From: Baffinella frigidus
Lineage: Eukaryota > Cryptophyceae > Cryptomonadales > Baffinellaceae
Assembly: GCA_026770585.1 (NCBI GenBank)
Contig: MU646310.1
Location: forward strand, 620,613-641,535
Length of the DNA stretch: 20,923 bases
Direction: 5' to 3'
Below the pieces are notes generated by a model, which was not told the origin of the DNA, ran no database searches, and worked only from the letters and a program-made list of their open reading frames with translations. Of the stretch, positions 1-16,443 are shown one piece after another. The translations under genes were made by a program, and so were the position numbers. The stretch's first letter is position 1; each line of letters starts with the position of its first letter.

Positions 1-28
1 CGAAAGCCAGCCGCGCCTCGTCGCGCAG
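1..28 (+). CDS. Possible 3' edge of an upstream exon of the DCN1-like gene
   Basis: The first 28 bases end in CGCGCAG followed by GTGCCT, the same GTGC-type donor used by the three recognised introns downstream. Read so that the exon ends in phase 0, the codons give ESQPRLVAQ, which would join in frame to the exon at 4885 that starts ATKKT. In DCN1 proteins a helix of similar character sits just before the FR..Y.F segment, so placement is plausible but sequence support is weak. Loose copies of this GC-rich edge (CCGCGCCT-like) recur just after elements at about 892-915 and 2006-2030. Joining it implies a 4856-bp intron. It could equally be non-coding. Confidence 0.28.
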
Positions 29-205
29 GTGCCTCGCCAGATTGGAGGCGGGGGTGTGTGAATTTTGTAAAGCAACGCAGGAAGGGGCTGTTGACTTTTG
101 AAAACCACTGCCTCCAGGAGGAATTGACTTTTGGCGACCCCTTCCAAGACTCTGGCGTGGTGCGTCCCATTGTGGTATGCGTGTGCTGCTCATTTGTCTT
201 ACCAG
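29..205. repeat. Dispersed repeat N, copy 1 (partner at 1497-1678)
   Basis: Bases 36-162 are an inverted, diverged copy of 1556-1678; CGCCAGATTGGAGGCGGG pairs with CCCGCCTCCAATCTGGCG. Bases 162-205 (GCGTCCCATTGTGGTATGCG) instead match 1497-1543 in direct orientation. The two parts of the element have therefore been rearranged relative to each other. Both copies keep an open frame containing LTFEN and LTFG, but I recognise no protein in it and do not call a gene. Confidence 0.7.
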
Positions 206-891: not shown

Positions 892-915
892 CCCCCCGCG
901 CCTTGTTCGCACCCG

Positions 916-970
916 CCCGTGACTGGTACACATTGTAACAACCCCGCATTTAAAATACTCCCCCTTCCTG
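916..970. repeat. Partial inverted copy of family I arm
   Basis: CCCGTGACTGGTACACATTG and the following AACAACCCCGCATTTAAAATACTCCC are the reverse complement of the sequence at about 1035-1087. The result is a 172-bp imperfect foldback spanning 916-1087. Between the arms (971-1022) lies GC-rich sequence containing CTGCGATGCCCC, which recurs at about 1257. Confidence 0.75.
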
Positions 971-1022
971 ACGTGGCGCCCTCATCTGCGATGCCCCGCT
1001 CACCCTCTGCCTCTCAGGACCA

Positions 1023-1234
1023 CCACTCGAGGCTGGAAGGGGGAGTATTTTAAATGCGGGGTTGTTAAACTTAGTACCAGTCACGGGCTGGTTTGGTCAC
1101 GTAGCTGGGGGAATTCTCCCCCAGCTACGTGACCAAACGCCCCTGTTTCTGTGAAAATTCCTACATAGTTCTTTTTTTTCTTCACTTGTTAACGAACCCC
1201 TGTTTTAAAATAGTCCCATGTCTAGCCTCAAGTG
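1023..1234. mobile_element. Family I foldback element, copy 1
   Basis: It begins CCACTCGAGGCTGGAAG and ends TCTAGCCTCAAGTG. The central 48-nt near-palindrome at 1091-1138 contains GGTCACGTAGCTGGGGGA and its complement. The whole element is the reverse complement of 3507-3714, including the T-rich CTTCACTTGTTAACGAA segment. The internal CACGTAGC palindrome is a shared module. Confidence 0.85.
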
Positions 1235-1282
1235 CCACTCTGACATGGCGCCCTCCTCTGCGATGCCCCACGAGATTTTCAT

Positions 1283-1345
1283 AAACAACCCAATAAATTA
1301 CAATTAACCCAATAAATCATAATAAATAACCCAATAAATTATGAT
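1283..1345. repeat. AT-rich AACCCAATAAAT direct repeats
   Basis: AACCCAATAAATTA/CA occurs three times in about 60 bp. It is an AT-rich short tandem stretch with no sign of coding. Confidence 0.7.
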
Positions 1346-1377
1346 TCGTCTCCAACGCCTCCATCCATTATAATCGC

Positions 1378-1468
1378 GGAGGGTGGAGGGTGGAGGGTGC
1401 AGGGTGCAGGGTGCAGGGTGGAGGGTGGAGGGTGGAGGGTGGAGGGTGGAGGGTGGAGGGTGGAGGGT
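1378..1468. repeat. (GGAGGGT)n heptamer minisatellite
   Basis: About 13 tandem 7-mers of GGAGGGT are present, with a block of GCAGGGT variants near the 5' side. The + strand is G-rich, with regularly spaced GGG runs that could form G-quadruplexes. The period (7) equals that of the TTTAGGG telomere-like repeat seen elsewhere in the window, but the unit differs. Confidence 0.9.
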
Positions 1469-1496
1469 GAGTGCCCCCTGCCTCGCAGGCCCTGGC

Positions 1497-1678
1497 TGCG
1501 TCCCATTGTGGGATGCGTGCGGTGGGCATGTTTTTCTTGCACCGGTGGTTGCTGGCCACGCCAGACTCTTGGAGGGGGTTGCCAAAAGTCAATTTCCCCT
1601 CAAGGCAGTGATTTTCAAAAGTCAAAGAGCACATCCTGTGGTGTTTTAACAAATTCAACCCCCGCCTCCAATCTGGCG
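1497..1678. repeat. Dispersed repeat N, copy 2
   Basis: This is the partner of 29-205: one part (1556-1678) is inverted and one part (1497-1543) is direct relative to copy 1. Bases 1679-1814 that follow contain two copies of a CTGATG(C/T)TGCGTCGCGTGCTGCCC unit, at about 1706 and 1769. Confidence 0.65.
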
Positions 1679-1814
1679 TGGGGTGAGTTGCGTGATGCTG
1701 GAAACTGATGCTGCGTCGCGTGCTGCCCTGTTGAGTTGCGTGCGGTGGGTCGCGTGATGCTGATAACTGATGTTGCGTCGCGTGCTGCCCCGGGTGGCCC
1801 GCCCTTTCGAGGTG

Positions 1815-2005
1815 CCACACGAGGATGCTAGAGGGGCCTATTTAAAACCGACGTTCTTTTGAAAGAGGGCATTTGTGTAGTAACTTTCGTTGAATGGTCA
1901 CGTGGCTCTGCTCAAATTGCACAGTCAGGAGGTTACTTTACCTTATCCTGGTACAAATATTTACAACCCCACATGTAAATAGGCCCCTCTAGCATTCTCG
2001 AGTGG
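1815..2005. mobile_element. Family H foldback element, copy 2
   Basis: The termini are CCACACGAGGATGCTAGAGG and CTCTAGCATTCTCGAGTGG. Compared with copy 1, the centre has been replaced by TTGTGTAGTAACTTTCGTTG and AATGGTCACGTGGCT. Those modules are found in families I and K, so this copy is a mosaic. Confidence 0.85.
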
Positions 2006-2190
2006 TGTGCCGCGCGCCTGCTGTCCAGCTTTGCCTCACGCGGGTCCACCGACTATTCTCACGTTAACATGCTGGGTGTGCGGCACACATCCGTCAACTT
2101 TGGCGCGGGAAAGTGCCCGGGCTCACCAAATCGGTGAGCCCAAATCGGTGGGCCCGAATAGACGGGAGGCAGAGCTAGGATTTCATCCGG
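2006..2190. repeat. Dispersed repeat L, copy 1
   Basis: It shares ACATGCTGGGTGTGCGG(C/T)AC, TCACGCGGGT, GTCAAC(T/C)TTGG and GAGGCAGAGCTAG with 8465-8760. It contains the small hairpin CTCACCAAATCGGTGAG. I see no convincing coding frame. Confidence 0.65.
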
Positions 2191-2192
2191 AA

Positions 2193-2331
2193 GAGTATTC
2201 ATAATGAATACGATTTCGGGGATCTCCAATCCGATTTCGGTGTATCTTAAGGCTCTAAATGAAGTCTAGATAGACGACTGTCTTATCTCCACCCTCAAGA
2301 TACACCAAAATCGTATTCATTATGAATACTC
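2193..2331. repeat. Imperfect foldback with GAGTATTCAT termini
   Basis: The arms GAGTATTCATAATGAATACG and CGTATTCATTATGAATACTC are complementary and each is itself palindromic. The inner arms GGTGTATCTTAAGG and CTCAAGATACACC also pair. The left arm carries an extra duplicated CCGATTTCGG segment. It resembles 8030-8150 in design (GAGTATTTAT termini). Confidence 0.75.
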
Positions 2332-2344
2332 GGCGGGATTAGAT

Positions 2345-2390
2345 TTGCTCCTCGCAGCGCGCTGACAGCCCTTGTGCTTTCAGGCAACCC
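2345..2390 (+). repeat. Copy of a splice-acceptor edge (GCTGAC...CAG|GCAAC)
   Basis: GCGCGCTGACAGCCCTTGTGCTTTCAG followed by GCAACC looks like a branch point, pyrimidine tract, acceptor AG and the first bases of the DCN1-like exon at 4885. Similar modules occur at about 4745-4775 and 4806-4884. It is read here as a duplicated exon edge rather than a functional exon. Confidence 0.55.
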
Positions 2391-2460
2391 AAGACCTAGG
2401 ACCCTACGGTAGGAAACTCGTAGGGTCATAGGGGGGTTCCTACGGATAAGGTAACGGAAA
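2391..2460. mobile_element. Family C core, truncated copy
   Basis: AGACCTAGGACCCTACGGTAGG through TTCCTACGGATAAGGTAACG matches the core of 420-578 and 9653-9812. The ACACAGCGG outer termini are missing. Confidence 0.7.
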
Positions 2461-2490
2461 CTGGGCCGCGACGATGCCTCTGCAGCAGAC

Positions 2491-2633
2491 TGCACTGCCA
2501 GGGCGGAGTTTTTGTATCAGTCAACTCACCTGCGAATGTGTAGTAAAGAAGCACCCATTACGGGTACCTCGTTTCTAAGTTGACAGATTTTGTGGGTGAA
2601 TAGACTTTACCAAATATCCGGCCTGGCAGTGCA
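2491..2633. mobile_element. Family D element, copy 1 (inverted relative to copy 2)
   Basis: The terminal repeats are TGCACTGCCAGGGCGGA on the left and TCCGGCCTGGCAGTGCA on the right. Over its full length it is the close reverse complement of 3030-3173, including AGTTGACAGATTTTGTGGGTGAA. The flanks (GCGACGATGCCTCTGC left, CCGGTGCCGTTCACATG right) resemble duplicated DCN1-exon edge sequence. Confidence 0.85.
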
Positions 2634-2672
2634 GTTACCCCGGTGCCGTTCACATGTCGGCGCGCTGACAGG

Positions 2673-2807
2673 CTAAACCCTGAACCCTGAACCATAAACC
2701 CTAGACCCTAAACCCTAAACCCTAAACCCTGAAGCCTAAACCCTAAACCCTAAACCCTAAACCCTAAACTCTAAACCCTAAACCCTAAACCCTAAACCCT
2801 AAACCCC
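2673..2807. repeat. Interstitial telomere-like array (CCCTAAA)n
   Basis: This is a near-perfect run of CCCTAAA with occasional CCCTGAA and CTCTAAA variants, about 19 units. It is C-rich on the + strand, which is the sense strand of the DCN1-like gene. It is internal, not terminal, because complex sequence continues on both sides. Confidence 0.95.
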
Positions 2808-2858
2808 GTGTCCCCGGTTATACTACGAGTAGTGTTCCCGCATCACTACTAAAAAAAA

Positions 2859-2994
2859 CACCAACCCTCACAACTTGGGCAAATCGAAAAAGTTAAAAAC
2901 TCCAAACCCCCTTCGAGGCCGTCGGAATCCGACGGCCTTCCAGGGGATTTTTGGAGCCATTTTCCCCGATTTGCCCAAGCTGTGAGGGTTGGTG
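2859..2994. repeat. Imperfect foldback (CACCAACCCTCACA termini)
   Basis: The left arm CACCAACCCTCACAACTTGG and following GCAAATCG pair with CGATTTGCCCAAGCTGTGAG and GGTTGGTG. The centre holds a strong hairpin, GGCCGTCGGAATCCGACGGCC. It has the size and symmetry of a MITE. Confidence 0.8.
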
Positions 2995-3029
2995 GAAGCA
3001 ACTCGTCAACCAGGCACCAAAGAAGATAG

Positions 3030-3173
3030 TGCACTGCCAGGCCGGATATTTCGTAAAAGTCAATTCACCCACAAAATCTGTCAACTTAGAAACGAGATAC
3101 CCAGATTGGGTACTTCTTTACTACCCATTCGCAGGTGAGTTGACTCATACAAAAACTGCGCCTTGGCAGTGCA
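3030..3173. mobile_element. Family D element, copy 2
   Basis: It starts TGCACTGCCAGGCCGGATAT, ends CGCCTTGGCAGTGCA, and is inverted relative to 2491-2633. It is preceded directly by CCAGGCACCAAAGAAGATA, a copy of the exon edge CAG|GCAACAAAGAAGACA found at 4882. The insertion therefore sits inside or beside duplicated exonic sequence. Confidence 0.85.
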
Positions 3174-3267
3174 CGTGCGGATCCTCGTAAATGTTCAACG
3201 GCATTTCTGTAGAACCTGCAATCGCGCGCAGTGAAACATTCAATGTTGTTTCGATCACTCGCCGAAG

Positions 3268-3483
3268 GGGGTAGAGCCAGTCTGGTAGGACTTGGCCAAA
3301 GCGAACTTCGAAGTTGCAAGATTGCGAACTTCTAGATGGACCCGTTTGGACATGTAGTGTTTTAAATTCAAATTTTGCAGTACAAATATGGTGTTTATTA
3401 ATACTTACGGTCCATCTAGAAGTTCGCAATCTTGTAACTTCGAAGTTCGCGCTGGCCAAGTCCTACCAGATTGGCTCTACCCC
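3268..3483. mobile_element. Family G foldback with about 75-bp arms
   Basis: GGGGTAGAGCCAGTCTGGTA, continuing through CTTCTAGATGGACC, pairs with GGTCCATCTAGAAG onward to TACCAGATTGGCTCTACCCC with few mismatches. The AT-rich loop is about 65 bp (3347-3408). This is the only copy seen in the window, and it has no credible ORF. Confidence 0.85.
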
Positions 3484-3506
3484 GCGGCAAGCTGTCAGCC
3501 TGTGTC

Positions 3507-3714
3507 CCACTCGAGGCTAGACATGGGGCTATTTTAAAACAGGGATTTGTTTACAAGTGAAGAAAAAAAATACGTGTAGTAAATTTCACACCAATAGGGG
3601 AATTGGTCACGTAGCTAGGGGGATTTCCACAGCTACGTGACCAGGCCTGCCCGTGACTGGTACCAACTTTAACAACCCCACATTTAAAATACTCCCACTT
3701 CCAGCCTCGAGTGG
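3507..3714. mobile_element. Family I foldback element, copy 2
   Basis: It runs from CCACTCGAGGCTAGACATGG to CCAGCCTCGAGTGG and is inverted relative to 1023-1234. It contains GTGTAGTAAATTT, the GGTCACGTAGCT/AGCTACGTGACC hairpin and CCCGTGACTGGTACC. Confidence 0.85.
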
Positions 3715-3915
3715 TCTCCTTGGGTCCAGGATCGCAGTGATCGCATCCTTCATTTGGTTCTCTTCCGCCAAGAATTATCCCACCACAGTCAAGGGGGTGG
3801 CAGCACTTTGTCTTCGTATACGTTGTATACTTGGTGATATACGACTCTGGGTAGGTGACCTTTCGGCATCTTCTTGTCTCGTGTCGCCTCCCCCGAAGCC
3901 CGTTTCAGCCAACCG
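3715..3915. other. Unassigned unique sequence
   Basis: About 200 bp between family I and a hairpin. Open frames exist on both strands, but neither has splice or family support. I see nothing identifiable. Confidence 0.4.
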
Positions 3916-3997
3916 GGACTGGGAGGTCGAGCCTCATAACCTGTCACGTCTTCTGAAGAGAGCATGTGACAGGTTAGGAGGCTCAACCTCTCAGTCC
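3916..3997. repeat. Hairpin with about 32-bp arms
   Basis: GGACTGGGAGGTCGAGCCTC and following ATAACCTGTCAC pair with GTGACAGGTTAGGAGGCTCA and following ACCTCTCAGTCC. The half-arm GTTGAGCCTCATAACCT recurs alone at about 6250. Confidence 0.8.
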
Positions 3998-4064
3998 TGC
4001 GTCTATCATGCGGTGCCTCTCCGGTACGGGTCAGCGCGCTGACAGCCCGTGTTATGTCAACAAG

Positions 4065-4172
4065 TATCCTTGAAGTGGCGAGGGGGGTTCTTAAAAAGAC
4101 TCACGCCAGGTCCTAGGCAGGTCCTATGGCCCTATGGTAGGGCGTATGAGCCTACTGGCCACTTGAGGGATA
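4065..4172. mobile_element. Family A MITE, copy 1 (decayed left end)
   Basis: The left end is TATCCTTGAAGTGGC and the right end GCCACTTGAGGGATA. The conserved core GGTCCTAGGCAGGTCCTA, then CTATGGTAGGGCGTATGAGC, defines the family. Nine copies lie in this window. Confidence 0.85.
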
Positions 4173-4238
4173 GAAACACTTAGTTCCCTCTTTGGAAGAG
4201 TGAAGGGGATGGTCCGACGTCATAACAAAGGTCTCTTC

Positions 4239-4884
4239 CTTTCCAGGCAACAAAGAAGACAGTGGTACCCTTGCACCTCGCGGCTCCTTTTCAGGCTACA
4301 AAGAATGGCAGCTTGTGGACCGGCGTGTTTTCAGGCTGCAAAGCCACCCTGGAGGCAGGGTGGGGGTATTTTGAGCATTCTTAAGTCAACTCCCCTTGAA
4401 AAGGACTGAGCCCTCAGTCCCCCGTGATGAATGGATCTGGTACAAAACGGTCTTGTAAGTATTTTAGGGCTACAAATCCTGTCAACCTTGGCGATAAAGG
4501 GTTATTCGGGATTGGCCGCAAGTCCCCTCCAGGGAGAGTTGACCGATTCACTCGGATTCAGGGGTTGACTACGTCGGGCGGCGGGGTTCGTACAGCACAC
4601 AGCACGTCCCCTCCAGGGTGGAGCTGACACCCCGTGTGTTTCCAGGCTACAAAGAAGACAGCGATGCCTCTCCCGTACGGACGCGCAACGGAGGGCCTAA
4701 ATAGACAGAGACACAGTACGGATTGCGCATCGTGACATCGTGGGGCGCTGATAGCCCTTGTCTTCAACCAGGCAACACAGAAGACAGTTGTTCCGGTGCC
4801 GTACAAATGTCGGCGCGCTGACAGCCCGTGTCCCCGGTTATAGTGTTCCCGTTTCACTACTCACACACGCAATTCTTCAAGCAG
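4239..4884 (+). repeat. Tandemly duplicated 5' edge of the DCN1-like exon
   Basis: Acceptor-like CAG plus GC(A/T)ACAAAGAAGACA occurs with the AG at 4246, 4294 (short), 4334 (short), 4645, 4771 and finally 4884, the presumed real exon. Translated in the exon frame, the copies read ATKKTVVPLHLA (4247), ATKKTAMPLPYGRA (4646) and ATQKTVVPVPYK (4772), against ATKKTSVPLPYGRA in the real exon. The copies are coding-like for 9-17 codons and then diverge. I read them as duplicated exon edges inside the intron; some could serve as cryptic acceptors. Confidence 0.7.
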
Positions 4885-5034
4885 GCAACAAAGAAGACAT
4901 CGGTACCCTTGCCGTACGGGCGGGCGGCGGAAGAGACCGACGCGTTCCGCACGCTCTACGCGTTTGTCTTCGAGCTCCTCAAGCCCGAGGGCAAGAAGTA
5001 CGTCGAAAAGGATATGGCGTGCCTCGCCCTGCAG
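4885..5034 (+). CDS. DCN1: DCN1-like exon a (50 codons)
   Basis: It encodes ATKKTSVPLPYGRAAEE, then TDAFRTLYAFVFELLKPEGK, then KYVEKDMACLALQ. The F(R/K)..Y.F.F...K..G.K......A pattern is the hallmark of the first helix pair of the DCN1 cullin-binding domain. The acceptor is CAAGCAG|GCA at 4884 and the donor CTGCAG|GTGCCG at 5035; both ends are in phase 0. Third positions are strongly G/C, unlike the flanks. The 5' edge is duplicated several times upstream, and the 3' edge once downstream at 5382-5430. The exact 5' boundary is inferred from the repeated CAG|GCAACAAAG edge. Confidence 0.8.
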
Positions 5035-5057
5035 GTGCCGACCGCGGGAACCAGCTC

Positions 5058-5190
5058 TAGAGAGAGATTGATAATTTATTGCCAAACAACCAGCGTCAGC
5101 GCCGCACATGCTACGCATTGTGCCACTTACTGTACCCCGTGTCGGCCGCTCATACGAGCATTTTCCGGATGGATTCTAACTCCACCTCCT
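5058..5190 (+). repeat. Family J dispersed repeat, copy 1
   Basis: It begins AGAGAGATTGATAATTTATT and runs to GGATTCTAACTCCACCTCCT. Close copies are at 11970-12100 (same strand) and 10958-11088 (opposite strand). There are no terminal inverted repeats. All three copies preserve an open frame with AAHATH and FSGWIL, but the element sits in an intron here, 24 bp after the donor, and I recognise no protein. It may be SINE- or introner-like. Confidence 0.8.
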
Positions 5191-5530
5191 CTAAACTCTG
5201 AACCAACCCTGAACGACCGTGGGACGCAGCCCGGAGGCCCTCCAGGTATGCAGTTTTGTGTAGTCAAGCCCCCACACATCGGACACGGCTAGTACCAATT
5301 TTTGGATTCGTTCCCGGATTGAAAAGACCCGTCTGCCCCCTCGCTCTCCGACCACGGGCCCTACACCCTAAATCGACTCCGATATGGCGTGCCTCGCCCT
5401 CCAAGTGCCGACTGGGGAACCAGCTCTAAACTCCGAACTAACCCTTAACGACCGTGGGACGCAGCTCTAAACTCTGAATCAACCCTGAACGACCGTGCGA
5501 CGCAGCCCTGAACTCTGAACCAACCCTTAA
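5190..5530 (+). repeat. Tandem CTCTGAACCAACCCTGAACGACCGTG repeats with exon-edge copy
   Basis: The unit (C)TCTAAACTCTGAACCAACCC followed by TGAACGACCGTGGGACGCAGC appears about four times, the last truncated. Inside it, 5382-5430 repeats the last codons of exon a and its donor side (ATATGGCGTGCCTCGCCCT, then CCAAGTGCCGACTGGGGAAC, then CAGCTCT). In this copy the donor GT is intact but the preceding CTGCAG is changed to CTCCAA. It is an intronic duplicate of the exon 3' edge. Confidence 0.75.
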
Positions 5531-5566
5531 ACACTCTGGCGTGGCTGGTGTGTGGGTCTGTTTCCC

Positions 5567-5630
5567 AGTTTTTCGACAAACAAACTGGCCCAAACTGCCA
5601 AACTGGCAGTTTGTTGGTTGAGAAAACTGA
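5567..5630. repeat. Short foldback (CAGTTTTTC / GAGAAAACTG)
   Basis: CAGTTTTTCGACAAACAAACTG and CAGTTTGTTGGTTGAGAAAACTG are imperfectly complementary, with CCAAACTGCCAAACTGG between them. It is an isolated small hairpin. Confidence 0.55.
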
Positions 5631-5691
5631 TTGACAGCCTTGGCTGGTGATCACAAACTGATTGGTAGCCTTCGGTGGTCGGTCACACACA

Positions 5692-5942
5692 CCTAGACCC
5701 CTAAACCTGAACCTGAACCCTAACCCCTAAACCTAAACCCTAAACCCTGAACCTGAACCCTAAACCCTGAACCCTTATCCCTTATCCCTAATCCCTAATT
5801 CCTAATCCCTAATCTCTCATCCCTAATCCCTAATCCCTCATCCCTAAACCCAAAGCCCTGAGCCCCAAGACCTCAACCCTAAACCCTAAACCCTAATCTC
5901 TGAACCCTAAACCCCAAACCCTGAACCCTGAACCCTAACTCC
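5692..5942. repeat. Degenerate telomere-like array, C-rich on +
   Basis: It mixes CCCTAAA, CCCTGAA, CCCTAAT and CCCTTAT heptamers over about 250 bp. It lies in the intron between exons a and b, with the C-rich strand in sense orientation. Confidence 0.9.
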
Positions 5943-6014
5943 GGGTTCTGCCTTTCTCCAAACTTGACATATTTGTCCCGAACTCCCAGCATACGTGATA
6001 ACAGTCGGTCCTTA

Positions 6015-6128
6015 TCCGGGGAAACCTATTTTTCTTTCATTTGATGGCAATCAAAATTACTACACAGATTCTTTTATGTGTAGTAATTTTGATTGCCATC
6101 AAATGAAAGAAAAATAGGTTTCCCCGGA
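6015..6128. repeat. Perfect hairpin with 52-bp arms
   Basis: The arms 6015-6066 and 6077-6128 are exact reverse complements, separated by GATTCTTTTA. The outer ends are TCCGGGGAAACC/GGTTTCCCCGGA and the inner ends TTACTACACA/TGTGTAGTAA, a motif shared with several other foldbacks. It has MITE or hairpin-RNA potential and sits within the intron. Confidence 0.9.
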
Positions 6129-6228
6129 GAAGTCCGCCCGAACGAGGCGAGCCAGGCCGTGGCTGAGCAGACGCGCGATGTGCCTGTCAAAGCCCCTCAC
6201 CCCCAACCCTAACCATACCTACCTATCA

Positions 6229-6255
6229 GGCGTTCTTCCAGGAAGAACGCCTGTT
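6229..6255 (+). repeat. Palindromised copy of microexon 5' edge
   Basis: CAGGCGTTCTTCCAG, the acceptor AG plus first codons of the microexon at 6606, is followed by its own reverse complement, GAAGAACGCCTG. This makes a perfect 27-nt palindrome. It is an exon-edge duplicate that has been inverted on itself. Confidence 0.75.
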
Positions 6256-6448
6256 GAGCCTCATAACCTTTCCGCCCGGGCGGACGTCGCGGCACATGCG
6301 TCTAGCTCTGTCTCAAGGTTTAGTTGTAATGACTTAAGGACGTCCATTGCCTCGTGCGTCTAGCTCTGTCTCAGTATATGTGGGCTCACCCATTTGGCAG
6401 GCTTTTTTCCGCCCCAAAATTGACAGATACCGGTTTCCCTTTCGTGCA

Positions 6449-6496
6449 GGCGTTCTTCCAGGGGGGGGCCGGGCGGACGTCGCCGCACGTGCGTCT
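6449..6496 (+). repeat. Alternative copy of the DCN1-like microexon
   Basis: After the acceptor GTGCAG (AG at 6448-6449), the frame reads AFFQGGAGRTSPHV. It is nearly identical to the 6606 copy (AFFQGVPGRTSPHVE) and is followed by a GTGCGT that could be a donor. If that donor were used after CAC it would yield a 39-nt exon, also in phase 0. It could be a mutually exclusive alternative exon or a dead duplicate. Confidence 0.6.
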
Positions 6497-6605
6497 AGCT
6501 ATCTCTCTCTCAGTCTGTTGCCTTAGAAACCGTAGAGTCTATTCGCGCTCGCCAATTTCGCGAGACGCGGTTCCGATCGAGAGTTGACAGCGCGATCCCA
6601 TCCAG

Positions 6606-6650
6606 GCGTTCTTCCAGGGGGTGCCCGGACGGACGTCGCCTCACGTCGAG
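6606..6650 (+). CDS. DCN1: DCN1-like exon b, 45-nt microexon
   Basis: Fifteen codons, AFFQGVPGRTSPHVE, lie between TCCAG|GCG and GAG|GTGCGA. Both ends are in phase 0, so the reading frame is kept with exons a and c. In DCN1 homologues about 20 residues separate the ....A....L helix from W..FL; without this exon the join would be about nine residues too short. A very similar copy lies 157 bp upstream (6450-6488), and a 3' fragment (GGACGTCCCCGCACGTCGAG) lies at 6760-6779. The exon is inferred from frame, splice sites and spacing, so it is less certain than exons a, c and d. Confidence 0.6.
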
Positions 6651-6654
6651 GTGC

Positions 6655-7018
6655 GACCCTCAACCCTAAACCCTAAACCCTACACCCTAAACCCTAGACC
6701 CTAAACCCTCAACCCTAGACCCTGAACCCTACACCCTAAACCCTAAACCCTAAACCCTCGGGACGTCCCCGCACGTCGAGGTCCCGCCTCTCTCTCTGCC
6801 GCTTGCGACTAACTAGCTAGCCTCAACCCTAAACCCTAAACCCTAAACCCTAAACCCTAAACCCTACACCCTAAACCTTAAACCCTAAACCCTAAACCCT
6901 GAACCCTAAACCCCAAACCCTAAACCCTAAACCCTAAACCCCAAACCCCAAAACCCAAAACCCCCAAACCCCAAACCCCTAAACCCTAAACCCTAAACCC
7001 TGGACCCTCAACCCTCGG
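6655..7018 (+). repeat. Telomere-like intron body (CCCTAAA)n
   Basis: Starting six bases into the intron and ending three bases before its acceptor AG, the sequence is largely CCCTAAA with variants CCCTAGA, CCCTACA, CCCTGAA and CCCCAAA. A duplicated microexon edge plus CTCTCTCTGCCGCTTGCGACT interrupts it at 6757-6820. The 371-bp intron 6651-7021 is therefore built mostly of telomere-type repeat, with ACCCTCGGCAG as its 3' end. Confidence 0.92.
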
Positions 7019-7021
7019 CAG

Positions 7022-7104
7022 GGGTTTCTGGAGTTTCTCCAGAGCAGCGACGCGATCCTCTCCCTCAACCTCGACCAGTGGAAGAGCTTCATGCAGTTTT
7101 CTCG
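7022..7104 (+). CDS. DCN1: DCN1-like exon c
   Basis: It encodes GFLEFLQSSDAILSLN followed by LDQWKSFMQFS and two bases of an Arg codon. The FL.FL......I..D.W..F..FS pattern matches the second helical block of the DCN1 PONY domain, where the conserved D.W supports cullin contact. The acceptor is CTCGGCAG|GGG (phase 0) and the donor TCTCG|GTGCCC at 7105 (phase 2); the next exon supplies G to complete CGG (Arg). Degenerate copies of its 3' half follow at about 7238, 7664 and 8165. Confidence 0.83.
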
Positions 7105-7237
7105 GTGCCCGCCCCCCTCCATATCCACACTCTAGGCGAGCCCGACTTCACTGCAGAGCCCCCCTCCATAACCGCACTCTAGGCGAGAGCCCGGGATTCT
7201 CGCGAGCACAGAGGTGGAGTTTAGGGTTCGGTTTTTT

Positions 7238-7318
7238 GGGTTGCCGCGATCCTCTCGCTCAACCTCGAGCAGTGGAAGAGCTTCATGCAGTTTTCGAAGT
7301 GCCCGCCCCGCCACACAC
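7238..7318 (+). repeat. Duplicate of exon c 3' half
   Basis: CGCGATCCTCTCGCTCAACC and following TCGAGCAGTGGAAGAGCTTC through CAGTTTTCGAAGTGCCCGCC repeat exon c codons AILSLN(L)EQWKSFMQFS and its donor region. The base before the donor has changed (TCTCG|GTGCCC to TTCGAA|GTGCCC). A family K element begins directly afterwards at 7319. It is an intronic exon-edge copy and probably not used. Confidence 0.75.
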
Positions 7319-7499
7319 CCACACGAGGCTATCCATGCGAACAGATTCATAAGTTAATTATTGGATTATTGCCCAGGAAACACGCCAAAAGCCAGCATTT
7401 GATCACGTTTCCGTACGGACATCCGTACGGAAACGTGATCATTTCCCCACAAATTTTAAAATGTCCTTTTATTCTGTTCGCATGAATAGCCTCGTGTGG
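7319..7499. mobile_element. Family K foldback element, copy 1
   Basis: The ends are CCACACGAGGCTATCCATGC and GCATGAATAGCCTCGTGTGG, with CGAACAGA / TCTGTTCG extending the arms. The centre has a 40-nt hairpin (7401-7440) with 18-bp arms, GATCACGTTTCCGTACGG and its complement. It is inserted at the exon c donor-edge duplicate. Confidence 0.85.
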
Positions 7500-7504
7500 A
7501 CAGC

Positions 7505-7615
7505 TGCGTCCAAAAGGGTTTTCTGAATAACCCACACCGGGATGATCCATAGCCCCTACGGTAGGCAATACCGTAGGGGCATAGGGGGGTTCCTACGGAC
7601 ACGGCAACGAAAAAT
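7505..7615. mobile_element. Family C-like element, divergent
   Basis: AAAAGGGTTTTCTGAATAAC, CCCCTACGGTAGGCAATACC and GGGGCATAGGGGGGTTCCTA correspond to the 9653-9812 element. The ACACAGCGG termini are replaced, leaving a weak AAAAATCCGCCCGAATCGGG right flank. Confidence 0.65.
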
Positions 7616-7659
7616 CCGCCCGAATCGGGCCTCTCTCAGGGCTTTAGTGTTATTAGGGT

Positions 7660-7761
7660 TTCCAGCATCCTGCCCCCCAACCTTGATCAGTGGAAGAGCT
7701 GCCTGCTGTTTTCTAGGCCCGCGCCCCTCCCTATCCCCACTCTGGGCGAGACCCCCTCCCT
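7660..7761 (+). repeat. Second degenerate duplicate of exon c 3' half
   Basis: CCAACCTTGATCAGTGGAAG and AGCTGCCTGCTGTTTTCTAG, followed by GCCCGCGCCCCTCCCTATCC, repeat the LDQWKS(C)..FS region. The donor GT is lost (CTAG|GC). CCCCACTCTGGGCGAGA recurs here, at 7942-7960 and at about 7973-7990. Family K copy 2 follows directly. Confidence 0.7.
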
Positions 7762-7940
7762 CCACACGAGGCCAACCAGGCGAACAGAATAAAAGGGACT
7801 TTTAAAGTTTTGTACTGAAATGGTCACGTGTCGCGGCGCTGAGCGCTGCGACTTGTGTAAAGTCGCTGCTTTTCATCTCAAAATTACTACACACGTTTAC
7901 AATCGACTTTTATTATGTTCGCATAGGTAGCCTCGTGTGG
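7762..7940. mobile_element. Family K foldback element, copy 2
   Basis: It runs from CCACACGAGGCCAACCAGGC to GCATAGGTAGCCTCGTGTGG, with AACAGAATAAAAG / CTTTTATTATGTT inner arms. The interior differs from copy 1 and carries AATGGTCACGTG and ATTACTACACACG, modules also seen in families H and I. Confidence 0.83.
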
Positions 7941-8029
7941 CTATCCCCACTCTGGGCGAGATCCCCTCCCTATCCCCACTCTGGGCGAGACCCCCTCCCT
8001 GTCCCCACGCCGCAGGATCTCATCGCGGC

Positions 8030-8150
8030 GAGTATTTATGATAAATACGCACATGCAACGAAATTTACCACACACATCGATCGTACTAGTAGTTATTAAA
8101 ACATGTGTGTGGTAAATTTCGTTGCCATGGCGTATTTATCATAAATACTC
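8030..8150. repeat. Foldback with GAGTATTTAT termini
   Basis: GAGTATTTATGATAAATACG and CAACGAAATTTACCACACAC pair with GTGTGTGGTAAATTTCGTTG and CGTATTTATCATAAATACTC. It is flanked by GGATCTCATC and GATGAGATC, which are themselves complementary. Immediately downstream, 8165-8180 (ATGCAGTTTTCCAG) is one more copy of the exon c 3' edge. Confidence 0.85.
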
Positions 8151-8342
8151 GTCCGGATGAGATCATGCAGTTTTCCAGGCGAGCGCCCCGCCCCCCACCT
8201 GGTGGACCACGAACCTTTCATCAAAAGTGAACTTGCCTTGATGCAATTAACTTTAGAGATTTTCTGGCCCTGTTCCCCCTCGAGGTGAGGCACCCCCCTC
8301 GGCAGTCTGGTAGGTTGAGGCACCGCGGAAGTTGTCCGTGAC

Positions 8343-8447
8343 TATCCCTTAAGTGGCCATGCCGTCAAATTTGACGGCCAAGCGGTCATAGGCAGGTCCT
8401 AGGGCCCTACGGTAGGGCGTATGAGCCTACTGGCCACTTGAGGAATA
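8343..8447. mobile_element. Family A MITE, copy 2
   Basis: It has TATCCCTTAAGTGGCCATGC and GGCCACTTGAGGAATA ends and the standard GGTCCTAGGGCCCTACGGTA core. It lies in the long intron between exons c and d. Confidence 0.88.
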
Positions 8448-8464
8448 ATACGATCACCTGTTTG

Positions 8465-8760
8465 GCATGTGGCGTGTCCCGCGTGTCGTAGCGCTCACGC
8501 GGGTTGGCTCGCGGACTATTGTAAAGTTGACATGCTGGGTGTGCGGTACAAATCAGTCAACCTTGGAGCGTGGAAGAGCACGGACACGTCACCTCGTAGC
8601 GTTAGTCCAAGCTCTGCCAGAGTTAATCTGGTCTCCTCAAAATGAGGAGACCGGACGTAGATTTCTCCGTTTTCTGGTACACATCCGCCCACGTTTGGTG
8701 AGAACCCGATCAGTCAACCCGACTGAGGCAGAGCTAGAGCTCGCTGGCGGGGGGTGTTAT
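8465..8760. repeat. Dispersed repeat L, copy 2
   Basis: It shares several blocks with 2006-2190 (ACATGCTGGGTGTGCGGTAC, TCACGCGGG, GAGGCAGAGCTAG). Inside is the hairpin GGTCTCCTCAAAATGAGGAGACC (8629-8651). No supported coding content. Confidence 0.6.
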
Positions 8761-9009
8761 GTCGGCGCCTAACTTCTTCCCTGTCTACGCACACGGGTTA
8801 CTCGAAAGCCAGAACACACACCGTCCCAGGATCTGCCTAGGACCGCAGGGGGTCTATGTGGACCCCCTCGAAACTGAACATCGCCGCCGAGTGGCTCCAG
8901 GACCCTGAACCTTCAAACCCTCAACCTGAGCTCCAAACCCCTAGACCCTCGACCCTACATCCTGGACCGTGCACACGAGTGAGGAACCCCAGTGCATGTG
9001 TGGGTGGAT
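8761..9009. other. Unassigned intronic sequence with sparse CCCTGAACC
   Basis: The first part is unique. From about 8900, scattered CCCTGAAC, CCCTCAAC and CCCTAGAC heptamers look like eroded telomeric repeat. No gene seen. Confidence 0.5.
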
Positions 9010-9105
9010 GCGCACCCTAAAGTGGACGCTCACTCTAAAGTGGACGCGCACCCTCAAGTGGACGCTCACCCTAAAGTGGACGCGCACCATAAACCCTGAA
9101 CCCTC
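9010..9105. repeat. 18-bp tandem repeat CGCACCCTAAAGTGGACG
   Basis: Four to five head-to-tail copies of (C/G)C(A/T)CACCCTAAAGTGGACG lie here, followed by CCATAAACCCTGAACCC. The unit embeds a CCCTAAA heptamer, so it may derive from telomere-like sequence. Confidence 0.8.
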
Positions 9106-9127
9106 ACCGGGTGGAACAGGGACGTGA

Positions 9128-9131
<4 letters not shown>

Positions 9132-9182
<51 letters not shown>
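9132..9182. repeat. (CT)n microsatellite
   Basis: About 25 uninterrupted CT dinucleotides follow GGGACGTGACATT. The pyrimidine-rich strand is the sense strand of the DCN1-like gene, upstream of its last exon. Confidence 0.95.
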
Positions 9183-9521
9183 ACACACTCACCCTCCCTC
9201 TCACTCACACTCTCTCCCTACCCAAACCTCGTGGGAACCGCAGGGACGTGGACGCAACGTGACATTCTCTCCCACTCTCTCTCCCTCACACACACACACA
9301 CTCTCTCTCTCTCTCTCACTCACTCTCCCACTCTCTCACTCACTCTCCCACTCTCTCACACACTCTCCCTACCCTAACCTTGTGGGAACCGCAGGGACGT
9401 GGACGCAACGTGACATTCTCTCCCACTCTCTCTCACACACACACTCTCTCTCTCTCTCTCTCTCACTCACTCTCCCACTCTCTCACACACTCTCCCTACC
9501 CTAACCTTGTGGGAACCGCAG
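9183..9521 (+). repeat. Minisatellite repeating the last-exon splice acceptor
   Basis: Large units contain CT/CA-rich sequence, then CTACCC(T/A)AACCT(T/C)GTGGGAACCGCAG and GGACGTGGACGC. Acceptor-like CCGCAG ends at about 9243, 9394 and 9521. Only the last is followed by the open coding sequence; the earlier ones continue AACGTGACATTCTCTCCCAC. An abbreviated CAGGGACGTGACATTCTC lies before the (CT)n at about 9118. This tandem array iterates the pyrimidine tract, acceptor AG and first 12 exon bases. Confidence 0.85.
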
Positions 9522-9651
9522 GGACGTGGACGCGGGGTTCTCAGGGTTCAGCGACGAAGACCCCTGGCCGAGCCTCTTCGACGAGTTCGTAACCTGGTCG
9601 AAGAACCAGCAGTCCTGGAAGGATAAGTTCCCCGAGAACAAGGACGCGTAG
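9522..9651 (+). CDS. DCN1: DCN1-like last exon d
   Basis: After CCGCAG, one G completes an Arg codon begun in exon c. The frame then reads DVDAGFSGFSDEDPWPSLFD, EFVTWSKNQQSWKDKFPENK, DA and stop TAG (9649-9651). The SDED.WP.L.DEFV.W motif is the signature C-terminal block of DCN1/PONY domains, where acidic residues and W contact the cullin. The extension of about 18 residues after the motif is lysine- and asparagine-rich. Codons are G/C-ending. A family C element starts two bases after the stop. Confidence 0.88.
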
Positions 9652-9652
9652 C

Positions 9653-9812
9653 CACACAGCGGACTTTGAAGGGATTTCTGAATAACCCCTACGCGATAAG
9701 ACCTAGGACCCTACGGTAGGCAACCCGTAGGGGCATAGAGGGGTTCCTACGGATAAGGTAACGGAAACTCGGACACTGAGCGCCCGAAAATCCCTTCGTA
9801 GCCCGCTGTGTG
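9653..9812. mobile_element. Family C foldback element, best copy
   Basis: Termini CACACAGCGG-ACTTTGAAGGGATTT and AAATCCCTTCGTAGCCCGCTGTGTG enclose the CCTAGGACCCTACGGTAGG core. It begins two bases downstream of the DCN1-like TAG, so the 3' UTR or polyadenylation region of that gene must lie within or beyond this element. Confidence 0.88.
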
Positions 9813-9814
9813 GG

Positions 9815-10012
9815 TGGTGGGACCTGTCGGGTTGACCCGCAACCGTCTAGCCGGTAGGACCGTAAGGATGAGCCGCAACCGTCTGTAGGGCCTTTGGGGT
9901 TGAGCCGCAACCATTTGTGGGAACTTGAGGGTTGAGCCGCAGGACCTTTGGGTCTGAGCCGCAGGACCGAGGGACCTTTGGGTGTAGGACCTTTGGGGTT
10001 GAGCCGTGCGCT
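9815..10012. repeat. Degenerate tandem repeat (GGGTTGAGCCGCA.. / GGACCTTTGGG)
   Basis: Variable-length units combine TTGAGCCGCAACCGTCTGTA, with variants, and GTAGGACCTTTGGGG; about six units are seen. Open frames here (PKGP-like on the minus strand) are by-products of the repeat. Confidence 0.75.
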
Positions 10013-10043
10013 CGGTTTCATGCACCGCAAGCGCGCGCGCTGC

Positions 10044-10163
10044 TACAGAGGTACCTCGCTCATAAGAAACCGCGCCCCCCTAGGACCACCATGGGCCCGA
10101 GGCATAGGCCTACTGTAGGGTCCTAGAGGAGGGGCGATTTCTTATGAGCGAGGTACCCCTGTA
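10044..10163. mobile_element. Family B MITE, copy 1, with 19-bp flanking duplication
   Basis: The ends are TACAGAGGTACCTCGCTCAT and ATGAGCGAGGTACCCCTGTA. The inner arms AAGAAACCGC(G) and TTTCTTA pair around GGGCCCGAGGCATAGGCCTA. It is flanked by identical 19-bp direct repeats, CCGCAAGCGCGCGCGCTGC, at 10025-10043 and 10164-10182. Confidence 0.9.
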
Positions 10164-10182
10164 CCGCAAGCGCGCGCGCTGC

Positions 10183-10315
10183 GACAGCCTGCTGTAGCCC
10201 GTCTAGCTGTAGTTACCTGGTGTGTCACATGTACCCCAAGGAGGGTTGCTCTGCCTGTCACTGGATATAACTGCCTTACCTGGTGTGGCGCCGCAGCGGC
10301 ACCACACGCTCAGAG
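10183..10315. other. Unassigned spacer
   Basis: About 130 bp with a small GTGGCGCCGCAGCGGCACCAC hairpin; otherwise nothing identifiable. Confidence 0.5.
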
Positions 10316-10419
10316 TATCCCTTAAGTGACCGTAGGGTGAATATTCACCCTAACTCGCCCTAGGCAGGTCCTAGGACCCTACCGTAGGGTGTATGAGCCT
10401 ACTGGTCACTTAAGGGATA
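10316..10419. mobile_element. Family A MITE, copy 3
   Basis: TATCCCTTAAGTGACC and GGTCACTTAAGGGATA are perfect inverted termini. The inner GGGTGAATATTCACCC palindrome replaces the usual AAATTTG centre, as also in the reverse copy at 20475-20578. Confidence 0.92.
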
Positions 10420-10469
10420 GGTAGAGTGGGGAACTCCAACGCTGTTGCGCCACACTCGCAGAGTGCAGG

Positions 10470-10590
10470 TGCAGGGGTATCTCGCTCATAAGAAACTGCC
10501 CCCCCCCTAGGACCAAACTAGGGCCCCAGGCACAGGGCTACTGTAGGGTCCTAGGGGGAAGCGCTTTCTGATGAGCGAGGTACCCCTGTA
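10470..10590. mobile_element. Family B MITE, copy 2
   Basis: The ends are TGCAGGGGTATCTCGCTCAT and ATGAGCGAGGTACCCCTGTA. A 21-bp direct repeat, GTAGAGTGGGGAACTCCAACG (one mismatch), occurs at 10421-10441 and 10588-10608. It brackets the element plus 28 bp of additional sequence. Confidence 0.88.
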
Positions 10591-10660
10591 GAGTGGGGAA
10601 CTCCGACGTGGCCTCCCAGGCAGGGTAGATGGTGGCCTGTCTGCGTTTCGGTGTGTACTG

Positions 10661-10765
10661 TATCCCTTAAGTGCCCATGCCGCCAAATTTGAGGGCCAAG
10701 AGGTCCTAGGCAGGTCCTAGGGCCCTACCGTAGGGCGTATGAGCCTACTGGGCACTTGAGGGATA
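10661..10765. mobile_element. Family A MITE, copy 4
   Basis: TATCCCTTAAGTGCCCATGC to GGGCACTTGAGGGATA with the GGTCCTAGGCAGGTCCTAGG core. Confidence 0.9.
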
Positions 10766-10817
10766 TCTAACACATGCGCTACAACAACCCGGGAATCCTG
10801 CACGGCGCCGTGCACCT

Positions 10818-10942
10818 TACAAGAGTACCTCGCTCATAAGAAACGCCCACCCCCCTAGGACCACCATAGGGCCCTAGCTAGGCATGGTCCCTACTGTATG
10901 GTCCTATGGGGGGCGGTTTCTTATGAACGAGATAGCCCTGTA
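10818..10942. mobile_element. Family B MITE, copy 3
   Basis: TACAAGAGTACCTCGCTCAT to ATGAACGAGATAGCCCTGTA, with mutated termini. The inner arms AAGAAACGCCCACCCCCCTA and GGGGGGCGGTTTCTT are kept. It is flanked by related GTGCACC/ATGCACC sequence. Confidence 0.87.
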
Positions 10943-10957
10943 CATGCACCGGCGTGT

Positions 10958-11088
10958 AGGAGGTCTAGTTAAAATCCATCCGGAAAATGCTCGTATGAGC
11001 GGCCGACACGGGGTACAGTCGGTGGCGTAATGCGTAGCATGTGCGGCGCTGACGCTGGTTGTTTGGCAATAAATTATCAATCTCTCTG
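10958..11088 (-). repeat. Family J dispersed repeat, copy 2 (inverted)
   Basis: The reverse complement matches 5058-5190 and 11970-12100 over about 130 bp (AGAGAGATTGATAATTTATT to CCTCCTA). The flanks contain CACCGGCGTG on both sides (10948-10957 and 11089-11098), a possible 10-bp target duplication. Confidence 0.8.
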
Positions 11089-11261
11089 CACCGGCGTGCA
11101 CCGCCGCGCCTCTCACTCCACCCTGTACATGTGTTGTGGATATCTAGGCTCTAGGGGCACCTGAGGATGCAAGGTTATGAGGACTTCAAAGTAGATTCAC
11201 CGTCGGCGTCTGCTAAGTGGTGCAAAGCCAGGCTTTGGGATTGAACCAAAGGTTTCAGTCC

Positions 11262-11560
11262 TGTAAGTCCTTTAGGTTTTCATTTCGCCCAACATATGCC
11301 AACGACACACCCTTCCGTAGGATTTCTAGAAAGGGTCTGCAGAGAAAGCATTTTTGCTTTCGGATCGCGTTTTCCCTTCAGGTCCTTCAGGTTTTGATTT
11401 CTCCCAACATAGCCCAACGACACGCCCTTCCGTAGAAAGGATGTGCAGAAACAACATTTTTGCTTTCGGATCGCATTGCGCTCCCCAGTGCAGAAACTTG
11501 CGAGGAGGGGATAGAGGGAGGTTCTCTTGGGGTGCTTGAGTTACCCCAAAGGACCGTGCT
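11262..11560. repeat. Family P repeat, two tandem copies
   Basis: TCCTT(T/C)AGGTTTT(C/G)ATTTC(G/T)CCCAACATA, then CCAACGACAC(A/G)CCCTTCCGTAG and GCATTTTTGCTTTCGGATCG, occurs twice about 115 bp apart. It is followed by CAGTGCAGAAACTTGCGAGG and AGGTTCTCTTGGGG. Copies of the same order lie at 18145-18345 and, truncated, at 16133-16205. No terminal inverted repeats or coding frame. Confidence 0.8.
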
Positions 11561-11760
11561 CGCCCACACACCAAACCCCAGTCAGCCTTTATGAGGCGCA
11601 TGGTATCCCATGGTTAAAATGTAGGAGCTCCAACCACGGATACCCCACAAGATTGCAAAAGGTGAGAGGGATTGTGTGGGGGGGGGGGGTGAGATCAACC
11701 AGACATCAAAGATGAAAGGGGAGAGCAGGGGTTTCCCCCAATGCACGGACGTTCATAGGC
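11561..11760. other. Unassigned spacer
   Basis: About 200 bp with short repeats of GGTATCC/GGATACC around 11601-11645 (GGTATCCCATGGTTA and AACCACGGATACC are complementary) and a poly-G run at 11680. No gene seen. Confidence 0.5.
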
Positions 11761-11910
11761 TAACGGCCTGAAAATGGGGTAGTTAGGCATACGGCATTGC
11801 CTAGGACCTGCTACCGTAGGCCGAGGGATCCTAGGACTAAAAAGTCTCGGCCTACGGTAGGAGGTCCTAGGCAATGCCGTAGGCCTAACTACCCCATCTT
11901 TAGGCCGTTA
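11761..11910. repeat. Near-perfect 65-bp-arm hairpin (family F)
   Basis: TAACGGCCTGAAAATGGGGT onward to ACCGTAGGCCGAG (11761-11825) pairs with CTCGGCCTACGGTAGG onward to CATCTTTAGGCCGTTA (11846-11910) with few mismatches. The loop is 20 nt. It carries the CCTACGGTAGG motif and CTAGGACTAAAAAG, resembling the family E loop region. Confidence 0.9.
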
Positions 11911-11969
11911 CCCTATTAACGTCAGCAAGGTTCGAGGGAGATCCAAGCGTCAGAAAGCAACAATAGCAA

Positions 11970-12100
11970 GAGAGAGATTGATAATTTATTGCCACACAAC
12001 CAGCGTCGGCGCCGCACATGCTACGCATTGTGCCACTTACTGTGCCCCGTGTCTGCCGCTCATACGGGCATTTTCCGGATGGATTCTCATTCCACCTCCT
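11970..12100 (+). repeat. Family J dispersed repeat, copy 3
   Basis: It matches 5058-5190 closely from AGAGAGATTGATAATTTATT to TTCCACCTCCT and is preceded by extra GA dinucleotides. Confidence 0.82.
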
Positions 12101-12174
12101 ACAACAACAGCAAGACATCAACACAAAGGTGGCTGTACAGAATGTGCAAGACACATGGAGACCGACCCCATAAG

Positions 12175-12450
12175 GGTTTGCGTTTTACGGTGTACGGTGT
12201 ACGGTGTACGGTTTATGGTTTATGGTTTATGGTTTATGGTTTATGGTTTAGTGTTTAGGGTTGAGGGTTGAGGGTTGAGGGTTTGGGTTTTCAGATTTAG
12301 GGTTGAGGGTTTGGTATTTAGTGTTTAGGATAGGGTTGAGGGTTTAGGGTTTAGGGCTTTGGTTTTAGGGTTGAGGGTTTAGGGCTTCGTGTTTAGGGTT
12401 TTCTGGGGTTTAGGGTTTAGGGGTAGGGTTTAGGGCATAGGGTTCAAGAA
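12175..12450. repeat. Telomere-like array, G-rich on +
   Basis: It opens with (GGTTTAT)n and GGTGTAC variants and passes into GGTTGAG and TTTAGGG heptamers. Its orientation is opposite to all arrays before 9.1 kb. On the minus strand it is CCCTAAA, i.e. pyrimidine/C-rich in the sense of the putative minus-strand gene at 13.3 kb. Confidence 0.9.
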
Positions 12451-12472
12451 AGCGCCCCCCCCCCAGGATCCT

Positions 12473-12530
12473 ACAGGGACACCTTGCTCATAAGGAAGCG
12501 CCACCCCCTAGTACCCTACGGTAGGTACTA
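12473..12530. mobile_element. Family B half element
   Basis: TACAGGGACACCTTGCTCAT to CCCTACGGTAGG matches only the left half of family B. It is embedded in the telomere-like tract. Confidence 0.65.
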
Positions 12531-12554
12531 AACCCTACACCACTAAACCCTGAA

Positions 12555-12970
12555 CCCCAAAAGGGTTCACGGTTTACGGTGTGCGGTGTACAGTTGAGGG
12601 TTTATGGTTTAGGGTTACGGTTTGAGGTTTAGGGTTAGGGTTTAGGGTTTGGGGTTTAAGGTTGAAGGTTTAAAGTTGAGGGTTGAGGGTTGAGGGTTTT
12701 GTGTTGGTTTTGTATTGTTTATTGTTTAATATTTAGTGTCTTGGGTTTAGGGTTTAGGGTTAAGGGTTTAGGGTTAGGGTCTAGGGTTTAGGGTTCAGGG
12801 TTTATGGTTTATGGTTTATGGTTTTGGGTTTAGGGTTTAGGGTTCAGGGCTTCGGTTTTATGGTCGAGGGTGCACGGCTTCGTATTGAGGGTTTCGGGCT
12901 TAGGGTCTGTGTTTTCGGTTCTCGGGTGTAAGGTGTAGGGTGTAGGGTGTAGGGTTGAGGGTTGAGGGTT
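12555..12970. repeat. Telomere-like array, G-rich on +, degenerate
   Basis: About 400 bp of TTTAGGG, GTTGAGG, GTTTATG and GTGTAGG heptamers with clear 7-bp periodicity. It is continuous in character with 12175-12450 apart from a family B half element. Confidence 0.9.
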
Positions 12971-16440: not shown

Positions 16441-16443
16441 ATG

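Follow-up and report, generated by a model that had tools for sequence, protein, structure and literature searches.

The window analysed here, a stretch of 20,923 nucleotides (nt) of contig MU646310.1, contains part of a gene for a DCN1-like protein whose exon ends recur, splice sites included, within the neighbouring introns. Copies in direct orientation span five of the seven intron-facing exon ends of this gene, and elsewhere in this genome, as far as a small sample of genes reaches, the ends of exons are copied more often than intron interiors. Our favoured explanation, to which we assign a probability of roughly 0.45, is that introns are lengthened by local, repair-like duplications that recur at exon ends and trap filler DNA between the copies. 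A sequence-only reading of the window had proposed that every exon edge of the gene is duplicated inside its introns; the observation is real though overstated, and is partly confirmed by our analysis.

Exon-end copies in a DCN1-like gene

A profile search matched the coding blocks at 4885-9650 to Cullin_binding (PF03556), which makes them the C-terminal portion of a DCN1-like protein, and we predicted the exon map from an alignment with a relative, protein P0006, together with Pfam scores. In this alignment P0006 has LALQAFFQGVPGRTSPHVEGFLAFL continuous across the exon junctions, and the four acceptors and three donors predicted for exons a to d are all GT-AG. The sequence-only reading had a microexon here; we rejected such an exon, of 12 nt and with a donor that would be non-canonical, since the P0006 alignment shows it to be the start of a 45-nt GT-AG exon (exon b). 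The PF03556 match scores 59.8 bits without exon b, 67.8 bits with a trial 12-nt microexon plus three residues, and 79.6 bits with the 45-nt exon, above the curated cut-off of 27.9. The relatives of the protein are cryptophyte-like, among them P0002, an entry of the EukProt set labelled Tamp, which we take to be Teleaulax amphioxeia; a further protein search with P0006 returned P0006 alone. Short homology to P0006 (14 residues, 43%, tblastn) suggests that a preceding exon probably ends at position 29. The predicted exons are as follows.

1..29, + strand: 3' end of the probable preceding exon (ESQPRLVAQ), donor CAG/GTG
4885..5034, + strand: exon a, DCN1-like by PF03556 and relatives, donor CAG/GTGCCG
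6606..6650, + strand: exon b, 45 nt, AFFQGVPGRTSPHVE, donor GAG/GTGCGA (P0006 alignment, Pfam)
7022..7104, + strand: exon c, donor CTCG/GTGCCC (P0006 alignment); 5' edge without a copy
9522..9650, + strand: exon d, including the stop codon (P0006 alignment, Pfam)

We denote the seven intron-facing edges a5 and a3, b5 and b3, c5 and c3, and d5, after the 5' and 3' ends of exons a to d. Copies were sought in the window by local alignment against shuffled sequences and by a self-BLAST in which simple repeats had been masked; this self-alignment confirmed the copies above the shuffles. Positions 2626 to 3031 include an array of telomere-like sequence and a miniature inverted-repeat transposable element (MITE).

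1480..1529, + strand: likely copy of the preceding exon's donor edge, intron side strong, exon side weak
2626..2674, + strand: weaker fragment of the a5 unit, continuing at 2804-2852 and 2997-3031 beyond the telomere-like array and MITE
2998..3026, + strand: a5 copy (local alignment against shuffles)
4028-4054: weak fragment of the a5 unit (nhmmer)
4244..4274, + strand: a5 copy, 94% (local alignment, self-BLAST)
4643..4692, + strand: a5 copy, 78% (local alignment, self-BLAST)
4761..4804, + strand: a5 copy, 82% (local alignment, self-BLAST)
5381..5428, + strand: a3 copy with donor, 92%, its intron part running on to 5511 (local alignment, self-BLAST)
6222..6314, + strand: split copy of exon b, 6222-6242 plus 6276-6314 (local alignment against shuffles)
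6447..6490, + strand: exon b copy, 91% (self-BLAST)
6763..6780, + strand: weak b3 copy (TSPHVE; tblastn), missed by local alignment against shuffles
7245..7324, + strand: c3 copy with donor, 87.5% (local alignment, self-BLAST)
7667..7753, + strand: c3 copy, 82% (local alignment, self-BLAST)
8163..8199, + strand: short c3 copy (local alignment against shuffles)
9220..9262, + strand: d5 copy, 94%, within a 151-bp tandem array (9150-9496)
9371..9413, + strand: d5 copy, 36/36 nt identical, within the same array

Self-BLAST thus found direct copies in the adjoining introns that span a5, a3, b5, c3 and d5. The copy of b3 is weak, and local alignment against shuffles across the window gave no copy of c5, only telomere-like matches; hence "every" edge is too strong. 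At least five upstream copies had been claimed for a5: four are clear, and five is reached only if weak fragments are counted. The pieces of the exon-a acceptor unit at 2626-2674, 2804-2852 and 2997-3031 have nhmmer E values of 9e-6, 6e-4 and 0.035, and the unit, including its intron part, is repeated across about 2.3 kb. The a3 copy expected at 5382, the copies of the 3' half of exon c expected at 7238, 7664 and 8165, and the exon d acceptors expected at about 9243 and 9394 were all recovered. For the three microexon copies placed at 6229, 6449 and 6760, we find a split copy of exon b, a copy of 91% identity and only a weak 3' piece, respectively. Several copies are therefore present for single edges at a5, b and c3. 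The preceding exon's end adds an eighth edge, likely copied at 1480-1529, where the alignment scores 50 against a shuffle maximum of 38 with a MITE left out.

Because the copies hold intron as well as exon sequence, they are duplications of junctions at the DNA level. We rejected a chance origin, as copies in both the window and the survey described below exceed shuffles. When the seven edges were shifted rigidly and circularly, five were spanned in 0.05% of 20,922 shifts, these shifts being correlated with one another; if only the repeat coverage of 1-9521 is taken as background, five of seven gives a binomial P of 0.016. There are nine local-repeat families in 1-9521, five of which span edges, one of which is a satellite of a3 and three of which are neither; seven such families lie in 9651-20923. 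Direct local repeats make up 29.3% of unmasked bases in 1-9521 versus 12.6% in the intergenic half. A search of 382 Mb of the genome with exon c returned, among the matches listed, only exon c itself and its nearest copy, a pattern that fits a local process within the limits of a single exon query and a search insensitive enough to miss the 82% copy at 7667. On this search, with the same limits, dispersed or retro-copied exons were rejected.

Exon ends in other genes of the same genome

Profile matches gave 108 kinase exon places and 10 chaperonin ones, from which we fetched 20 + 1 stretches where neighbouring matches were close together and nearly consecutive in the profile. The survey covers 20 of these 21 stretches (19 kinase, one chaperonin), with 24 of 25 introns and 46 of 50 intron-facing edges; telomere-like masking made L059, and one edge each of L057 and L068, untestable. 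The sample consists mostly of kinases, its splice sites are predictions, and some exons have probably gone unrecognised.

A direct copy lies in the intron at 18 of the 46 edges, and on the reverse strand at none (0/46); 15 of 24 introns have at least one edge copy. Some of the 18 matches are weak (for example L061, 23 nt; L072, z 6.6). No copy was found for any of 11 mid-exon windows. Direct matches occur for 35 of 161 interior windows, or 25 of 146 once 15 windows traced to edges are set aside; reverse-strand matches occur for 23 of 161, so that many of the interior direct matches may be dispersed repeats. The difference is clearest for young copies (at least 85% identity over at least 35 nt), which are present at 12/46 edges versus 1/146 purged interior windows (Fisher P about 1e-7), or versus 8/161 unpurged ones (P about 1e-4). 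At any identity the difference is smaller, the purged comparison being 18/46 versus 25/146 (P = 0.002). We estimate that having a conserved partner gives edges an approximately twofold advantage in detection; the young-copy ratio is larger. The excess of exon-edge copies in introns over intron interiors that the sequence-only reading had anticipated is thus present as far as this sample reaches, and its proposal that duplication of splice-site-spanning segments lengthens introns gains support: splice sites lie within the copies, which are direct and local, and in the small sample of other genes the copies are concentrated at exon ends.

The counts above include stretch L066 as re-split after a missed exon was recognised; earlier young counts were 11/44 versus 6/151. 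With its exons joined, L066 scores 104.3 bits for Pkinase, and the donor edge of its kinase exon at 883-953 (VYTYIQSRFYR/GT) is repeated several times downstream, to 1573.

Kinesin stretches L074 and L075 were kept out of the survey count because they had been chosen for overlapping profile matches. In L074 (C506:56010-57300) and L075 (C112:293880-294480) kinesin exon pieces occur twice in direct order, with 88% identity over 106 nt and 84% over 223 nt. L076, a kinesin stretch with one intron, also lies outside the count; it shows no direct repeat, and including it gives 18/48. The DEAD family profile gave 18 matches and no usable exon pairs, and Pfam gave no match for 10 open reading frames from readable random stretches. 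One sampled stretch, L050 (C407:350001-360000), is a fully readable 10 kb with open frames of 1312, 626 and 536 amino acids and few repeats, in which it differs from the remaining genome sampled.

Origin of the copies

We compared the form of the copies in a set of direct pairs of at least 80% identity and at least 30 nt, no more than 700 nt apart, from the window and L054-L077. The partners are separated by at least 28 nt in 40 of the 42 pairs that overlap exons, the exceptions being the d5 tandem array and L077 (10-nt gap); under laxer scoring the gap in L064 is 16 nt. Simple tandem duplication, with adjacent copies and the whole unit repeated, was found for d5 only. For the copy of the exon 2 acceptor in L070, 57 of 58 nt match, both flanks are unrelated, and 100 nt of unrelated sequence lie between the partners. 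L065 and L067 (both 94%) resemble it, L067 retaining 19 nt of intron. Inspected by eye, the spacers of 16 pairs are mixed, being hairpin-like, partly telomere-like or nondescript.

These features suggest the following course of events. A staggered break or gap would arise at or near an exon-intron border, and fill-in or templated synthesis would copy the border and trap filler. The copied segment, commonly 25-90 nt of exon with the splice site and often a few intron nucleotides, would come to lie in direct orientation in the adjacent intron, usually tens to a few hundred nt from the original, with other DNA between. Copy and filler would become intron, and the change would be tolerated because the outer, original splice sites would still join the same coding sequence. 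Repeated rounds could yield several copies per edge and long introns. The preference for edges may reflect a preference in breakage, a preference in insertion, or coupling to splicing.

Several points weigh against this explanation. Pairs away from exons are mostly spaced as well, so that the spacer is not special to edges. The d5 copies belong to a true 151-bp tandem array, and the donor-edge repeats of L066 are in part a true 88-bp one. At any identity and without purging, the edge excess is weaker (18/46 versus 35/161, P = 0.016); 31% or so of the claim depends on thresholds set after looking; and six introns' worth of kinase loci, for example L055, L060, L069, L071 and L073, have no copies. 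Breakage and repair would, moreover, have to be read from finished copies, without intermediates, and a repair model alone fails to explain the sparing of intron interiors.

The strongest competitor, which we consider possible but the less probable, is ordinary tandem duplication everywhere, by slippage or unequal exchange, with exon-disrupting events purged, events within introns or over a single edge retained, and the copies separated by later insertions. On this view the apparent prominence of edges would come from introns having been short in the past and from one partner being a conserved exon. Seven direct-repeat families in the intergenic half of the window, the tandem arrays of d5 and L066, and minisatellites in the interiors of some survey introns are all in keeping with it, and when simulated introns started at 100 nt about 5.5 of 9 events spanned an edge. 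With a starting length of 700 nt, however, only 1.6 of 9 did, and the introns with young survey copies are long already, with intron gaps of up to 1.9 kb. Uniform neutral duplication from short introns had seemed sufficient on the window and the simulation; we rejected it after the survey, where the edge excess among young copies is larger than the detection advantage. A plain tandem duplication as young as the L070 pair should, in addition, still show the rest of its unit, which is absent from L070, L065 and L067 at 94-98% identity.

We also considered a process coupled to splicing or transcription, such as exon-limited R-loops or RNA-templated repair, that would break or copy DNA at splice sites. 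In a table of 22 edges, with splice sites set by eye, the exon side of the copy is longer than the intron side at 17 (medians 40.5 and 8 nt; P = 0.008), and the intron side is at most 11 nt at 14. This asymmetry is suggestive only. Among pairs of at least 90% identity the exon side is longer in just 8 of 12 (P about 0.05), the copies of d5, a3 and L077 reach well into the intron, and a shorter intron side in older copies is expected from decay of intron sequence on both partners. As an alternative to repair-like duplication, such a process seems to us unlikely; that exon ends are copied genome-wide by a coupled process bounded near the splice site, with intron growth seeded at splice sites and no part for random duplication or transposon insertion, is doubtful.

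Of 127 differences between exons and their copies, 63 are synonymous, against about 34 with random placement of the same changes, with or without CpG matching; with one copy per edge the figure is 46 of 90. Continued selection on the exon should produce some synonymous excess. Among young pairs 27 of 40 differences are synonymous, exceeding a rough expectation of 0.4 set without a formal model; this could be explained if the source alleles had synonymous differences beforehand.

Mobile elements that inserted across exon borders and left target-site duplications of unusual length would account for the copy-spacer-copy form, and the L067 and L065 spacers are hairpin-like or share MITE sequence. 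We regard this as very unlikely, since spacers are of different kinds and range from 10 to several hundred nt, and the MITEs of the window, where inspected by eye, have only very short target duplications. The sequence-only reading had tentatively linked the duplications to element insertion, a part of its proposal that gains no support. The copy of a3 lacks the MITE at 5059-5190 that splits the a3 original, and one copy of the a5 unit is broken by the telomere-like array at 2673-2806 and a MITE; because the MITE at 5059-5190 and the array interrupt copied units, these insertions look later than the duplications and not their cause. Assembly error, through mis-joined haplotypes or polishing duplicates, is barely credible: L070 exon 2 and d5 are among the nearly identical pairs, yet most pairs differ by 5-25%, they lie in many unlinked genes, some units carry separate insertions of their own, and the overall range of divergence (0-25% across many genes) argues against mis-joining.

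Elements close to the exons are listed here.

32..160, strand not assigned: MITE-like element 2 nt into the preceding exon's intron, with an inverted copy at 1556-1681
5059..5190, + strand: MITE splitting the original exon-a donor unit, with another copy at 11969-12100 (95%)
6656..6758, strand not assigned: telomere-like array immediately 3' of exon b
6821..7015, strand not assigned: telomere-like array reaching the exon c acceptor

Degenerate telomere-like arrays (CCCTAAA type) occur in introns and between genes, at 2673-2806, 5699-5938, 6656-7015 and 12173-12970, and the surveyed introns commonly contain them as well. A family of MITE-like elements that have terminal inverted repeats (TATCCCTTAAGTG...) is represented at 4061-4173, 8342-8447, 10315-10433, 10659-10769, 16955-17058, 18035-18139, 19467-19583 and 20270-20580. 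Its relatives are frequent genome-wide, with 40 places listed for a nearby repeat. A MITE-borne peptide weakly matches (E = 5.1) an annotated protein of the cryptophyte Baffinella frigidus. MITE patterns had no match in viral contigs; in genome contigs they matched 21 places, all in bacterial records, which we took as chance and did not use. Elsewhere in the window, a direct duplication of about 190 bp (82%; 14678-14858 and 15003-15201, with a 144-nt gap) lies in apparently non-coding or unannotated DNA. By eye, 20601-20720 on the minus strand is the terminal exon of another gene (...AAAYIVFRNPGPIMAFLWFALTRSLILAGLLLAYN, stop), whose short intron contains a 35-bp tandem repeat.

Comparison with known routes of intron growth

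The lengthening of introns is usually ascribed to transposons and neutral drift. If many introns contain copies of their own exon ends that are specific to the gene and can be dated, this would be another route of intron growth, whose rate and breakpoints such copies would make measurable. It would also raise the question of how the spliceosome passes over numerous decoy sites that look intact.

Introner elements form families whose similar introns occupy many loci, and mobile DNA is mixed with introns in algae and their relatives. Judged from exon c, which has two places among the matches listed, and from spacers compared by eye, the DNA copied in this genome may instead be specific to the gene. 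Internal gene duplication is said to be ubiquitous (reportedly Gao and Lynch, 2009), and duplications within genes common in eukaryotes; we know of no exon-end preference in such reports. In the open-access literature searched, we found no report of exon-end copies accumulating in introns.

Internal gene duplication can include splice signals, and in a potato case it copies an intron-exon border (PMC3443670). Tandem genomic duplication creates new introns (PMC4974935, PMC3443670), whereas in our genes existing introns grow: the intron gains copies of the edge of its own exon, next to that exon and with their own splice-site sequence.

By analogy, the closest published process to exon-end copying known to us would be the repair of staggered breaks in Daphnia (PMC4202315). 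There, new introns have direct exon/intron repeats around inserted DNA, read as the result of repeated staggered breaks; the repeats shared with exons are 4-12 bp, and there is a passive trend to longer introns (PMC4202315). The copies described here resemble that footprint in that direct repeats flank inserted DNA. They differ in being mostly 25-90 nt long (exon-side median 40.5 nt over the 22 edges), in bearing splice sites, and in occurring several to one old intron. Since copies so long and bearing splice sites lack the size feature of the Daphnia repeats, exon-end copying would be a variant of staggered-break repair rather than a member of that class.

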